64,000 bases of DNA from an uncultured Cohaesibacter sp. (lineage in GTDB: Bacteria > Pseudomonadota > Alphaproteobacteria > Rhizobiales > Cohaesibacteraceae), in NCBI RefSeq assembly GCF_963667045.1, contig NZ_OY762934.1, forward strand, positions 1,481,501 through 1,545,500. Reading direction: 5' to 3'. Shown here in pieces: positions 15,448 through 18,456 of the stretch. Every line of letters begins with the position of its first letter. Positions within the stretch are counted from its first letter, which is position 1. Below the pieces are notes generated by a model. The model worked only from the letters and a program-made list of their open reading frames with translations, was not told the DNA's origin and made no database searches. The position numbers and the translations under genes were made by a program.

Positions 15448-17139
15448 ATGACAGAGGCAATAGGGACTGGGGTGAGCGAACTTCCCGAACGCGAAAGCAT
15501 GGAATTCGACGTGGTGATTGTTGGCGCCGGACCTGCCGGGTTGTCTGCCGCAATACGGATCAAACAACAGGCTGCCGAGAAGAATGAAGAGATCTCGGTC
15601 GTGGTTCTGGAAAAGGGCTCGGAAGTGGGTGCCCACATCCTTTCAGGCGCGGTGATCGACCCGGTCGCCCTCAGCCGTCTCATTCCGAACTGGAAAGAGG
15701 ACGACAGCTGTCCGGTGAAGGTGCCGGTCAAGAAGGACAAGTTCCGCCTACTCGGACCCGCTGGCGCCATCGGTCTTCCCGGCTTCATCATGCCGCCTTT
15801 CATGCACAATGAAGGCAACTATATCATTTCTCTTGGCAATCTGTGCCGCTGGCTGGCAGAAAAGGCCGAAGAGCTGGGCGTCGAAATCTATCCCGGCTTT
15901 GCGGCTGCCGAATTGCTTTACGATGACAATGGCGCCCTGCGTGGCGTGGCCACCGGCGACATGGGCGTCGGCAAGGATGGTCAGCCCAAGGACACCTACA
16001 TGCGTGGCATGGAGCTTCTGGGCAAATACACCCTTATCGGCGAAGGTGTGCGCGGCTCGCTGGCCAAACAGCTGATTGCCAAATATGCGCTGGACAAGGA
16101 TTGCGACGTGCCGAAGTTCGGCATCGGCATCAAGGAAATCTGGGAGGTCGACCCGGCCAAGCATCAGGAAGGCCTGATCGAACATACCTTCGGCTGGCCG
16201 CTTGACAGCTCGACGGGGGGCGGCTCGTTCCTCTATCACATGGAAGACAATCAGGTGGCCGTCGGCCTTGTGGTCTATCTCAACTACAAGAACCCGTATC
16301 TGTCGCCGTTCGAGGAATTCCAGCGCTTCAAGACCCATCCGACCGTTGCGCCGCTGTTTGAGGGCGGCAAACGCATTTCCTATGGCGCTCGCTGCATCGC
16401 CGAGGGCGGCTATCAGTCCGTCCCGCGCCTTACCTTCCCCGGCGGCGCTCTGGTCGGCTGTGCTGCCGGCTTCGTCAACGTACCGCGCATCAAGGGCATC
16501 CACAATGCAATGGATTCGGGCATCTTCGCCGCCAATGCCGTGGTCAATGCGCTCGGTGAAGGACGGGCCAACGACGAATTGGTCACCTTCGAGGAAGGCT
16601 GGCGCAAGGGACCGATTGGCAAGGATCTGTTCAAGGTCCGCAACGTCAAGCCGCTGTGGGCCAAGCTCGGTCTGGTTCTCGGCGTCGGCCTTGGCGGGTT
16701 CGACATGTGGACCAACCAGCTGTTCGGCTTCTCTTTCTTCGGCACGCTGAAACATGGCAAGACGGACGCCAAGGCGACCCTGCCCGCAGCCCAGTGCAAG
16801 CCGATCGACTATCCCAAACCCGATGGCAAGCTCACCTTCGACCGCCTGAGCTCGGTCTATCTGTCTGGTGCCAACCACGAAGAGGATCAACCTTGCCATC
16901 TGGTGGTGGCTGACAGCGCCCTGCAGAAAAGCTCCGAGCATGATGTCTACGCCGGTCTGTCCCAGCGCTTCTGCCCGGCTGCGGTCTATGAATGGGACGA
17001 AAGCGGCGAGACGCCTGCCTACGTTATCAACGCGGCAAACTGCGTCCATTGCAAGACCTGTGACATCAAGGACCCGAACGGCAACATCACATGGACCGTC
17101 CCTGAGGGTGGAGGTGGGCCGACATACCCCAACATGTGA
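15448..17139 (+). CDS. Electron transfer flavoprotein-ubiquinone oxidoreductase
   Basis: This 563-residue inner-membrane flavoprotein passes electrons from ETF to ubiquinone in fatty acid, amino acid and choline oxidation. It starts with an FAD-binding GxGxxG motif (VGAGPAGLSAAIR, about residues 30-42) and ends with the 4Fe-4S ligands (CPAAVYEW, then NCVHCKTCDIKDP, near residues 510-545) and the conserved tail GGGGPTYPNM. A good ribosome site (AAAAGGA) precedes the ATG at 15448. The gene is intact, but its last 80 bases are repeated four times, in whole or part, downstream; see the repeat entries. No ETF subunit genes are adjacent. Confidence 0.96.
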   Translation: MTEAIGTGVSELPERESMEFDVVIVGAGPAGLSAAIRIKQQAAEKNEEISVVVLEKGSEVGAHILSGAVIDPVALSRLIPNWKEDDSCPVKVPVKKDKFRLLGPAGAIGLPGFIMPPFMHNEGNYIISLGNLCRWLAEKAEELGVEIYPGFAAAELLYDDNGALRGVATGDMGVGKDGQPKDTYMRGMELLGKYTLIGEGVRGSLAKQLIAKYALDKDCDVPKFGIGIKEIWEVDPAKHQEGLIEHTFGWPLDSSTGGGSFLYHMEDNQVAVGLVVYLNYKNPYLSPFEEFQRFKTHPTVAPLFEGGKRISYGARCIAEGGYQSVPRLTFPGGALVGCAAGFVNVPRIKGIHNAMDSGIFAANAVVNALGEGRANDELVTFEEGWRKGPIGKDLFKVRNVKPLWAKLGLVLGVGLGGFDMWTNQLFGFSFFGTLKHGKTDAKATLPAAQCKPIDYPKPDGKLTFDRLSSVYLSGANHEEDQPCHLVVADSALQKSSEHDVYAGLSQRFCPAAVYEWDESGETPAYVINAANCVHCKTCDIKDPNGNITWTVPEGGGGPTYPNM

Positions 17140-17202
17140 AGGATGTCACAGTTCCTTTCTACGATAAGCTAGTCTCGCGAGTTGCCTCGCGAGGCTTATC
17201 TA
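17140..17202 (+). repeat. Palindromic element A, copy 1
   Basis: Directly after the etfQO stop. It holds nested inverted repeats GATAAGC/GCTTATC and CTCGCGAG/CTCGCGAG with a four-base loop. Its left arm GATGTCACAG is the reverse complement of etfQO positions 17058-17067, and eight of these bases pair with GTGACATC at the start of the following tail copy. Confidence 0.9.
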
Positions 17203-17282
17203 GTGACATCAAGGACCCGAACGGCAACATCACATGGACCGTCCCTGAGGGTGGCGGCGGACCGACATACCCGAATATGTGA
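17203..17282 (+). pseudogene. etfQO tail copy L1 (80 bases)
   Basis: An 80-base copy of 17060-17139 including the stop codon. It differs from the gene at five positions, all third codon positions, so it encodes the identical last 26 residues but has no start. Third-position changes lie in the four-Gly run and in the Pro and Asn codons before the final Met. Confidence 0.93.
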
Positions 17283-17340
17283 CGGTCCATGGTCTCTTTT
17301 CGATAGGCTTTCAAGCGGCTGCACCGCTTGGCCTATCTTG
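17283..17340 (+). repeat. Palindromic element B, copy 1
   Basis: Nested inverted repeats GATAGGC/GCCTATC and AAGCGG/CCGCTT. The left arm, with the last two bases of the preceding stop codon, reads GACGGTCCATG, the reverse complement of CATGGACCGTC in etfQO (17090-17100); eight bases of it pair with GGACCGTC at the start of the next tail copy. A and B share a pyrimidine run before GATA and a similar layout. Confidence 0.9.
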
Positions 17341-17387
17341 GGACCGTCCCCGAAGACGGCGGCGGACCGACATACCCCAACATGTGA
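17341..17387 (+). pseudogene. etfQO tail copy S1 (47 bases)
   Basis: A 47-base copy of the last part of etfQO (17093-17139) with stop codon. It has seven differences from the gene, six at third codon positions and one that changes the first Gly of the four-Gly run to Asp. Its last two codons before the final Met (CCC AAC) match the intact gene rather than L1. Confidence 0.9.
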
Positions 17388-17450
17388 AGGATGTCACAGT
17401 TCCTTTCTACGATAAGCTAGTCTCGCGAGTTGCCTCGCGAGGCTTATCTG
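17388..17450 (+). repeat. Palindromic element A, copy 2
   Basis: Identical to copy 1 except for the last base (G instead of A). Same nested GATAAGC/GCTTATC and CTCGCGAG stems and the same inverted target arm. Confidence 0.9.
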
Positions 17451-17530
17451 GTGACATCAAGGATCCGAACGGCAACATCACATGGACCGTCCCCGAAGGC
17501 GGTGGCGGGCCGACATACCCGAATATGTGA
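17451..17530 (+). pseudogene. etfQO tail copy L2 (80 bases)
   Basis: A second 80-base copy of the gene end with stop codon. It differs from the gene at eight positions, all third codon positions, and so encodes the same residues. Confidence 0.93.
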
Positions 17531-17588
17531 CGGTCCATGGTCTCTTTTCGATAGGCTTTCAAGCGGCTGCACCGCTTGGCCTATCTTG
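17531..17588 (+). repeat. Palindromic element B, copy 2
   Basis: Identical in all 58 bases to B copy 1, with the same inverted target arm overlapping the preceding stop codon. Confidence 0.9.
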
Positions 17589-17635
17589 GGACCGTCCCCG
17601 AAGGCGGTGGCGGGCCGACATACCCGAATATGTGA
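17589..17635 (+). pseudogene. etfQO tail copy S2 (47 bases)
   Basis: The most downstream tail, 47 bases with stop codon, seven differences from the gene, all third codon positions. It is the copy next to the terminator, so it may be the remnant of the original gene end. Confidence 0.9.
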
Positions 17636-17663
17636 GAGTTGGCGCATTTCTGCCAGAACCAGA

Positions 17664-17690
17664 AAAGCCGGGCTGATGACCCGGCTTTTT
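17664..17690. terminator. Bidirectional terminator between etfQO array and cheZ
   Basis: AAGCCGGG and CCCGGCTT pair around a seven-base loop, with A-run on one side and T-run on the other. It can end both the etfQO transcript and the convergent cheZ transcript. Confidence 0.88.
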
Positions 17691-17733
17691 CTTGTCTTTT
17701 ACTCGTTGGATCTTCCTGTCGAGGAGAAGGATG

Positions 17734-18456
17734 CTATCCGAACAGGGCGTCGATATCGTCCTGGCTGCTGTCCTCTTCCTGCTTCAGCTTCTTGTTGCTG
17801 AAGTCCAGATCGGCCAACATGGCGTCGACTTCATCCTGCTGCACCCCTTCACCGGCATGCTGGGGACCATGAAGGATCAGCTCACGCTTGCGGCGTTCTT
17901 CGGGCGTTTCTTCATAGCAACCCTCATCGAGGTCGCTCATCTTCATGCGGTCGATGAATGTGGAAACGCGTTTGTCAATCACGTTGAGCGCGTTGACAAC
18001 CTTGGAAATGCGCTGCCCGGTGATATCCTGGAAAGAGCAGGCTTCAAAAATCTCTATCACCTTGTCATTGACCAGAGCCTGATAGGCATCCACGTCGCTG
18101 GGATCAGCGCCCATGATTTCCTCGGCTGATGACATGATGATATTCGTCGCATTCTCCGTAGCCTCGACCACGGCATCAAGCTCGCGGCCAGCATCGGGAA
18201 TTGCTGCATGACGCATCTCTGAAGGACGCAGAGCGGCAATCTCGTCTTTCATGGAAGAGATCTCGCTCGCAATGGCCGTGAACTCCTGATACAGGGAGGT
18301 ATCCATTGCCTGCAGATAGGCATCAAGGCTTCCCGCCATCACTTCGGCCAGAGCCATGATATCATTGAGAGAGATGTCTTCTCCCTTGTTCTGCTCCAGA
18401 AAAGCGACGAGTTGCGCGACTTTGTCGGCACTTAGCTGTTCTGCTTTGGCTGCCAT
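17734..18456 (-). CDS. cheZ: Chemotaxis phosphatase CheZ
   Basis: This 240-residue helical protein matches the alphaproteobacterial CheZ family, which removes phosphate from CheY-P. The catalytic helix carries CSFQDITGQRI (about residues 138-148), equivalent to the FQDLTGQ motif with the catalytic Asp and Gln. The extreme C-terminus SSQDDIDALFG resembles the CheY-binding tail of CheZ and the CheY-binding N-terminus of FliM. The middle holds long amphipathic helices for dimerisation. It lies 348 bases downstream of cheY on the same strand and may share its transcript. Confidence 0.88.
   Translation of the reverse strand: MAAKAEQLSADKVAQLVAFLEQNKGEDISLNDIMALAEVMAGSLDAYLQAMDTSLYQEFTAIASEISSMKDEIAALRPSEMRHAAIPDAGRELDAVVEATENATNIIMSSAEEIMGADPSDVDAYQALVNDKVIEIFEACSFQDITGQRISKVVNALNVIDKRVSTFIDRMKMSDLDEGCYEETPEERRKRELILHGPQHAGEGVQQDEVDAMLADLDFSNKKLKQEEDSSQDDIDALFG

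Follow-up and report, generated by a model that had tools for sequence, protein, structure and literature searches.

Gene-end hairpins and repeated coding tails in Cohaesibacter: a candidate tail-replacing DNA element

We analysed a 64,000-nucleotide stretch of the genome of an uncultured Cohaesibacter sp. (contig NZ_OY762934.1, positions 1,481,501 to 1,545,500; hereafter the window, whose own numbering is used below), focusing on an array of palindromes and partial gene copies behind the gene for electron transfer flavoprotein-ubiquinone oxidoreductase (etfQO). The gene is intact (15448..17139, + strand; an open reading frame (ORF) of 563 amino acids with the Pfam domains Fer4_ETF_QO and ETFQO_UQ-bd). 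Its stop codon is followed on the same strand by two A-L-B-S periods, in which A and B are palindromes of 63 and 58 bases and L and S repeat the last 80 bases (from 17060) and the last 47 bases (from 17093) of the gene; the place, order and lengths agree with a preliminary description of this DNA. The first period (17140-17387) comprises A1 (17140..17202), L1 (17203..17282), B1 (17283..17340) and S1 (17341..17387), and the second (17388-17635) comprises A2 (17388..17450), L2 (17451..17530), B2 (17531..17588) and S2 (17589..17635). The two periods had been described as perfect 248-base repeats; they are indeed equal in length, but only 236 of 248 bases are identical (A 62/63, B 58/58, L 74/80, S 42/47). 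Compared with the gene end, L1 matches at 75 of 80 bases and L2 at 72 of 80, with all altered codons synonymous, and both encode the exact gene end DIKDPNGNITWTVPEGGGGPTYPNM-stop. S1, which like L1 includes the stop codon, matches at 40 of 47 bases and has one non-synonymous codon change, and S2 has the same sequence as the end of L2.

Within A1, an arm (17141-17151) complementary to the gene at 17058-17067 is followed by a T-rich spacer and a hairpin core (17162-17201). B1 likewise begins with an arm (17283-17292), which by inspection complements the gene at about 17090-17098, and contains a core at 17301-17338; the cores of A2 and B2 lie at 17410-17449 and 17549-17586. When folded as single-stranded DNA, A1 and B1 reached z-scores of -6.0 and -4.9, and none of 200 shuffles of each folded as well. 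Given that this is far beyond shuffled sequence and that the core recurs at other gene ends, the array is not a product of chance. The hairpins of the array had no match at E ≤1 among the Rfam 15 covariance models, and we therefore rejected a described structured RNA as their identity.

To place this array in a wider context, we compared 18 Cohaesibacter genomes (G000 to G017, where G000 is the genome of the window, a single contig of 5.24 Mb). Five genes have hairpins of the same family between their stop codon and a repeat of their final 33-80 bases: etfQO, L-serine ammonia-lyase (sdaA), msrA, a 3-hydroxyisobutyrate-dehydrogenase-like gene (mmsB-like, a label for a family member by Pfam that scores below the NCBIfam cut-offs) and recQ. 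At all five the hairpin is oriented in the sense of the gene. The duplication takes in the stop codon and in all some 33-80 nt of gene end, in places with bases past the stop, and the next tail copy begins about 44-101 nt after the stop in the loci read. In the genome of the window, a loose-pattern search returned four matches at the etfQO array and three at the end of sdaA (TIGR00720 over cut-off), where four 34-nt tail copies are each preceded by a hairpin. Other gene ends were where the preliminary description had proposed to look for the palindromes, and the core is present there, i.e., at sdaA and the mmsB-like gene of the same genome. Across the 20 genomes of the family set, covariance model R1 had matches in 16 (E ≤0.01) and model R2 (83 rows, six of them antisense hairpin readings) in 17 (E ≤0.3). 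Both models miss known members (e.g., the mmsB-like array of the window's own genome), so that the census of target genes is a lower bound. Neither model matched outside Cohaesibacter in 199 genomes of the order and 289 of the class, under stricter filters at which weak matches are lost. A BLAST search of plasmids gave, among the matches listed (20 of 24 records), matches to the etfQO end only, none covering 80% of the query.

The arrays are patchily distributed. At etfQO, 14 of 17 assessable genomes carry one (absent from G006, G008 and G009; truncated locus in G007; decayed copy in G002), and the nearest named relative in our search, Cohaesibacter marisflavi (L003; 94% etfQO identity), has its own order, A-L-A-L-B-S. 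The genus label used for the 18 genomes rests on this relative, which sets the genome of the window in Cohaesibacter or close to it. Arrays were also found at sdaA in 13 of 18 genomes (the G016 copy being strongly decayed), at the mmsB-like gene in 7 of 11 examined, own genome included (decayed copy in G002), and at recQ in one of 11 (G008). Tail copies follow msrA at four of 14 fetched loci (G004, G009, G010 and G015), one of the 14 being unreadable. The remaining R2 matches belong to G002, where those read lie in or beside larger mosaic palindromes, apart from one weak match in G016. Empty alleles exist: sdaA has no unit in G017 and a single one in its relatives G005 and G016, in which the bases just past the stop are duplicated as well. 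The preliminary description had named as a contrary outcome an ancient duplication without empty sites whose palindromes occur nowhere else, and both parts of that outcome fail.

In each palindrome a T-rich spacer separates the outer arm from an inner two-step hairpin, which has a GATNNGC/GCNNATC stem, a bulge on the 5' side only (usually of 4 nt) and a variable second stem. What A and B have in common across genes is the inner hairpin alone (about 30-45 nt), and the outer arm is gene-specific and resembles the target gene; A and B are thus not the fixed 63- and 58-base elements they had been taken for. In 21 aligned cores, 93% of cells were paired and 44 changes were double-sided, with none of 500 shuffles scoring as high. 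A larger, structure-fitted alignment (68 distinct rows, six of them antisense readings) contained 156 double-sided versus 4 one-sided changes, 6 G-U cells and 8% unpaired cells. Double-sided changes with few G-U steps favour maintenance of the stems at the DNA level over selection on RNA. Template switching, which is reported to create and mend hairpins (PMC8794818), can also yield double changes.

Hairpins of this family also occur in other settings. In G002, at L159 (five sites), L160, L162, L163 and L164, they lie in or beside larger mosaic palindromes without gene tails, and some of them are in tandem with 47-nt spacing. At sdaA of G002 (L161), three hairpins stand head to tail with 47-nt spacing before one tail copy, and a shorter hairpin follows later; this run indicates that hairpins can increase in number without tails. 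Another intergenic hairpin-like site of the window's own genome (C1:4369138) has no tail copy, and a pattern scan of viral contigs gave two matches, both within phage coding genes and without tail copies; we took all three for chance.

The outer arm provides a link between each hairpin and its gene. Taking the first unit in each of 37 arrays, we measured how long a perfect complement the arm region can form with the gene near the point where the tail copy starts (leaving out sdaA of G003, and counting as misses etfQO of G002, mmsB-like of G001 and msrA of G015 (wrong hairpin taken)), and obtained a median of 8 nt. In the window, the gene stretch CTGTGACATC (17058..17067, + strand), which spans the L-copy start at 17060, is a 10-nt exact complement of the A arm beginning 2 nt upstream of the copy start, whereas control windows of the same gene end reached at most 5. 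At etfQO, msrA, mmsB-like and recQ taken together, 22 of 26 first units had an arm complement of 6-13 nt, the complement started 2-9 nt upstream of the copy in 21 of 26, and every control window was exceeded in 20 of 26 (e.g., msrA of G004, 12 nt, 5 upstream; mmsB-like of G008, 11 nt, 5 upstream; recQ of G008, 9 nt, 5 upstream). Since these upstream bases lie outside the tail copy, the arm must relate to the gene itself. Consistent with this, when arms were shuffled among genomes, the true arms tracked gene bases outside the copy in 27 of 40 cells at etfQO versus 21.6 after shuffling (p 0.002; 10 genomes), and in 22 of 28 cells at mmsB-like versus 18.0 (p 0.02; 7 genomes), p values that are indicative because related genomes are not independent. 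Excluded here were etfQO of G001, G003, G011 and G014 and mmsB-like of G009 (no anchor or B-first). Synonymous changes there are followed by the arm: ahead of the etfQO point, Thr is encoded by ACC, ACT or ACG depending on the species, and the arm has the matching base in 9 of 10.

The tail copies, although they lie past the stop codon, carry the mark of coding sequence. Of 79 alignments of copies to their own gene end we kept 66 with at least 80% identity (13 dropped), and found 17, 25 and 227 differences at codon positions 1, 2 and 3, respectively; 220 altered codons were synonymous and 38 were not, while 24% of random single changes are synonymous. As the differences are mostly third-position and synonymous, the downstream copies were recently functional tails, in line with the earlier proposal that they are displaced gene ends. 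The last copy of an array is more decayed than the others (124 synonymous and 45 non-synonymous codons in 37 copies versus 122 and 16 in 36; Fisher p 0.001; copies of at least 60% identity, with codons and copies not fully independent). At etfQO, 15 of 29 copies resembled another species' functional tail more closely than their own, a comparison biased upward since it sets the best of 13 others against one over 27-78 nt; this is no more than suggestive.

We propose, tentatively and at close to even confidence, that a short non-coding DNA element replaces gene tails in Cohaesibacter. Its unit would consist of a gene tail with stop codon, an arm of about 10 nt and the conserved two-step hairpin. 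Counting back about 33-80 nt from the end of the stop codon gives a point p in the gene, and the arm is reverse-complementary to the gene sequence that spans p. There, addressed by arm-gene pairing, the unit would enter the gene and supply a complete new tail such that the protein stays intact, while the old tail would come to lie past the hairpin, no longer coding. The array could then be lengthened, shortened or shuffled by additional rounds or by recombination among its copies. An enzyme acting in trans would presumably recognise the hairpin as DNA, and some tails may have been imported from other strains or species. We favour this reading because one hairpin family, one orientation and one arm rule (weakly at sdaA) hold at five genes, together with the coding signature of the displaced tails.

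Several results weigh against it. No enzyme for the hairpin was found: Y1 transposase genes (PF01797 over cut-off) are present in 10 of the 20 family genomes and absent from seven that bear the hairpin (G003, G004, G008, G010, G012, G013 and G014; an eighth, G007, is incomplete), and model R1 had a nearby match at none of 12 Y1 loci (of 26 Y1 places listed). The arms at sdaA are short (4-8 nt), with 5 of 11 above all control windows and just 2 of 11 passing shuffles at 0.05. In the hairpin, the count of further pair types was not above shuffles in either the 21 cores or the 68 rows, and the fitting of the larger alignment to the structure is a weakness. Because the same sites recur, gain cannot be told from loss, and no insertion event was observed directly. 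Among close species pairs, tails differ sharply in 5 of 12 pairs with arrays (e.g., sdaA of G004 and G015, with 10 of 240 differences in the body and 10 of 34 in the tail) and in none of four control pairs, and pooled array loci differ at 74 of 706 tail versus 133 of 2880 body positions; however, array-free control genes also change faster at the end (25 of 244 versus 66 of 960 in the body), so that visible replacement of functional tails is only partly upheld and weakly suggested. The preliminary description, which envisaged a mobile or recombination-driven element entering repeatedly near the 3' end, is accordingly supported in part: the hairpin occurs at other gene ends and empty alleles exist, but repeated entry does not follow, because the same few genes and sites recur and old insertions that expand, shrink and exchange tails by recombination fit as well.

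Arrays outside the genus bear further on this question. We examined two sets of etfQO loci that differ in sampling and may overlap in genomes: 77 usable loci from other genera (of 79 beside L003) drawn from the 80 most similar among the matches listed, and 60 loci chosen by hand from a BLAST match list. Among the matches listed, tail copies were found at 10 of 77 (best 20-mer 18-20/20, all others ≤16) and 1 of 60 loci (18/20), i.e., 11 of 137, with an insert unlike that of Cohaesibacter and lacking its core; one more locus, G122, has a BLAST match running through the insert at 76%, its copy being below threshold and uncounted. The first bases of these inserts are often the gene end in reverse complement, which puts the stop codon in the loop; the run measures 7-11 nt at 7 of 11 loci (shuffles ≤0.02), whereas the other four have 3-5 nt and are not significant. 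By eye, CCNCC is present in 9 of 10 inserts of the first set, where N matches the variable base of a Gly codon of the gene (GGN; C, A and G states seen); inner-arm runs are singly not significant. When we scanned 1,403 ORF ends (window, L159 and L003-L082; stop-to-stop frames over 150 codons, spurious frames included; copy ≥17/20 within 260 nt), tail copies followed 12, every one of which was etfQO, with two in Cohaesibacter. At one of the loci outside the genus (L020, Allorhizobium terrae), the tail array downstream of etfQO is broken up by an additional GC-rich hairpin (CCCGGCATC...GATGCCGGG).

These arrays look more like inverted tail copies, and fold-back copying fits them well, which counts against a tail-replacing element. 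In such template switching during replication, a strand would pass the stop codon, turn back on the tail and jump forward, giving tail, inverted tail and tail, after which slippage and recombination between strains would cut the inverted stretch down to an arm, add units and swap tails. A mobile element would not be required, though the palindrome family would have settled in the loop in Cohaesibacter. For the arrays outside the genus, template switching with recombination is a strong explanation, and the layout may have originated in this way. Besides the reverse-complement openings, it would agree with the making and repair of hairpins by template switching (reported in PMC8794818), with the insert at sdaA of G004, which as we read it also begins with the reverse complement of the tail end, and with the G002 hairpins in or beside other palindromes. 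Within Cohaesibacter, mostly the arm alone is inverted, and it extends past the copied tail. The mechanism gives no reason to expect that a single hairpin family should occur at five genes of one genus, that arms should extend 2-9 gene bases outside the copy, or that tail copies should turn up solely at etfQO in the ORF-end scan; we consider it the main rival, possible but less likely than the element.

A selected structure at the mRNA 3' end, in which the arm-gene stem and hairpin serve stability, termination or regulation and the tail copies are by-products of tandem duplication, would explain why arrays persist at the same genes across much of the genus and why arm and gene co-vary. Against it stand stems that change by double substitutions with few G-U steps, some congeners entirely without an array, and mostly synonymous differences past a stop codon, which selection on structure leaves unexplained; we regard it as improbable. 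Less probable still, and largely refuted, is an element of the IS200/IS605 or REP/RAYT type whose guide pairs with a cleavage site 3' of the hairpin. The order of parts (guide, hairpin, cleavage site) is that of the right end of such elements; yet Y1 is missing from seven hairpin-bearing genomes, the 12 checked Y1 loci have no hairpin in their flanks, the arm is mostly 6-13 nt rather than the roughly 4 nt of such guides, and 33-80 nt are duplicated here where such elements are not known to duplicate anything. The explanation we hold least tenable is a simple old tandem duplication of the gene end with flanking hairpins. It would account for the tandem layout and equal periods, but predicts drift at all codon positions rather than mostly at the third, and the same layout exists at four other genes alongside empty alleles; unless the copies are translated, the codon-position result refutes it.

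The layout has partial likenesses to several known systems. Some prophages and islands, e14 in icd among them, insert at the 3' end of conserved genes, which they restore, likewise joining a new 3' end to the gene and displacing the old one downstream; unlike the arrays, they encode an integrase and span many kilobases, and they are not known to form hairpin-tail arrays. CRISPR arrays share the alternation of repeat and insert, with older units at the far end, but in the present arrays it is a live gene's coding tail that repeats, and a single hairpin family makes up the inserts. Miniature elements derived from DDE transposons (MITEs) have terminal inverted repeats and target duplications of a few bp, which the duplicated segment here, about 33-80 nt of gene end with its stop codon, does not fit. 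In diversity-generating retroelements, differences between template and variable repeat are adenine-directed; the gene-to-copy changes here are mostly T-C, G-A and C-T, with 55 of 269 at A, and this candidate was rejected too. Quasipalindrome template switching makes and corrects inverted repeats with multi-base compensatory changes (PMC8794818), but is not known as a way of placing one shared hairpin at several genes or of forming arrays of recently functional tails. REP and REPIN sequences with their RAYT enzyme are also short palindromes found mostly downstream of genes and at times supply the stop codon; they differ in high copy number, the enzyme and a tetranucleotide tag, and the sections of PMC3733652 consulted do not describe them as duplicating gene tails or carrying a target-copied arm. 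A tag of the GTAG/CGTC type, as known from PMC3733652, was seen by eye at the hairpin foot in none of the 21 aligned cores, which have the T-rich spacer followed by CGATNNGY instead.

A further likeness is to mobile ORF elements of fungal mitochondria with C-terminal duplications, which sections of PMC3630166 describe in Allomyces and Glomus at atp6, atp9, cox2 and nad3. There, a tail carried by the element takes the place of all or part of the native tail, which remains downstream (PMC3630166); the two Glomus atp6 tails are reported to be 63.5% identical in DNA and 91% in protein, much as the displaced tails here differ mostly synonymously from the active one. The fungal elements are mitochondrial, encode an endonuclease and, at atp6, separate the tails by about 1 kb (same source), whereas the Cohaesibacter arrays are bacterial and non-coding, with a period of about 102-148 nt and a target-complementary arm. 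With about 44-101 nt between stop and copy, the unit is too short to hold an ORF for a homing endonuclease. Our search of titles and abstracts, with most subscription journals outside its coverage, returned no description of this layout.

Tail replacement without gene disruption is thus already known from fungal mitochondria and from large integrating elements, all of them enzyme-encoding. A non-coding element of about 60 nt with a target-copied arm would show how a parasite can live inside conserved gene ends and would make gene tails horizontally mobile. A bolder version, which we think rather unlikely, is a new class of genetic parasite, i.e., a non-coding, self-addressing hairpin of about 60 nt that writes a reverse-complement guide from its target, lands in conserved gene ends, hides behind a replacement tail and moves tails between species, several families of the order having etfQO as a landing site in common. 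In that case these bacteria would have modular gene 3' ends that can be exchanged horizontally. Should replication fold-back be the cause, the arrays would instead reveal a gene-end-specific mutational engine that has repeatedly struck etfQO across an order.

Around the array in the window, no mobility gene was seen among the three neighbours scanned (a family 4 uracil-DNA glycosylase upstream, CheZ-like and CheY-like genes downstream). A terminator-like hairpin with a T run, recognised by eye, follows the last tail copy (17663..17691, + strand), and Rfam 15 gave two sub-threshold matches at 17621-17692 (+) and 17658-17802 (-). Elsewhere in the same genome are three equal-scoring Y1 (IS200-like) genes (G000:C1 2482674, 3231277 and 3314427), two of which had their flanks checked and carry no hairpin there. 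Two genomes have a second etfQO copy: in G017 (L119) an A-type arm and spacer follow the stop codon and the match ends where the hairpin would begin, and in G010 (L122) the frame leaves etfQO at EGAGGP, within the tail region that is copied elsewhere.

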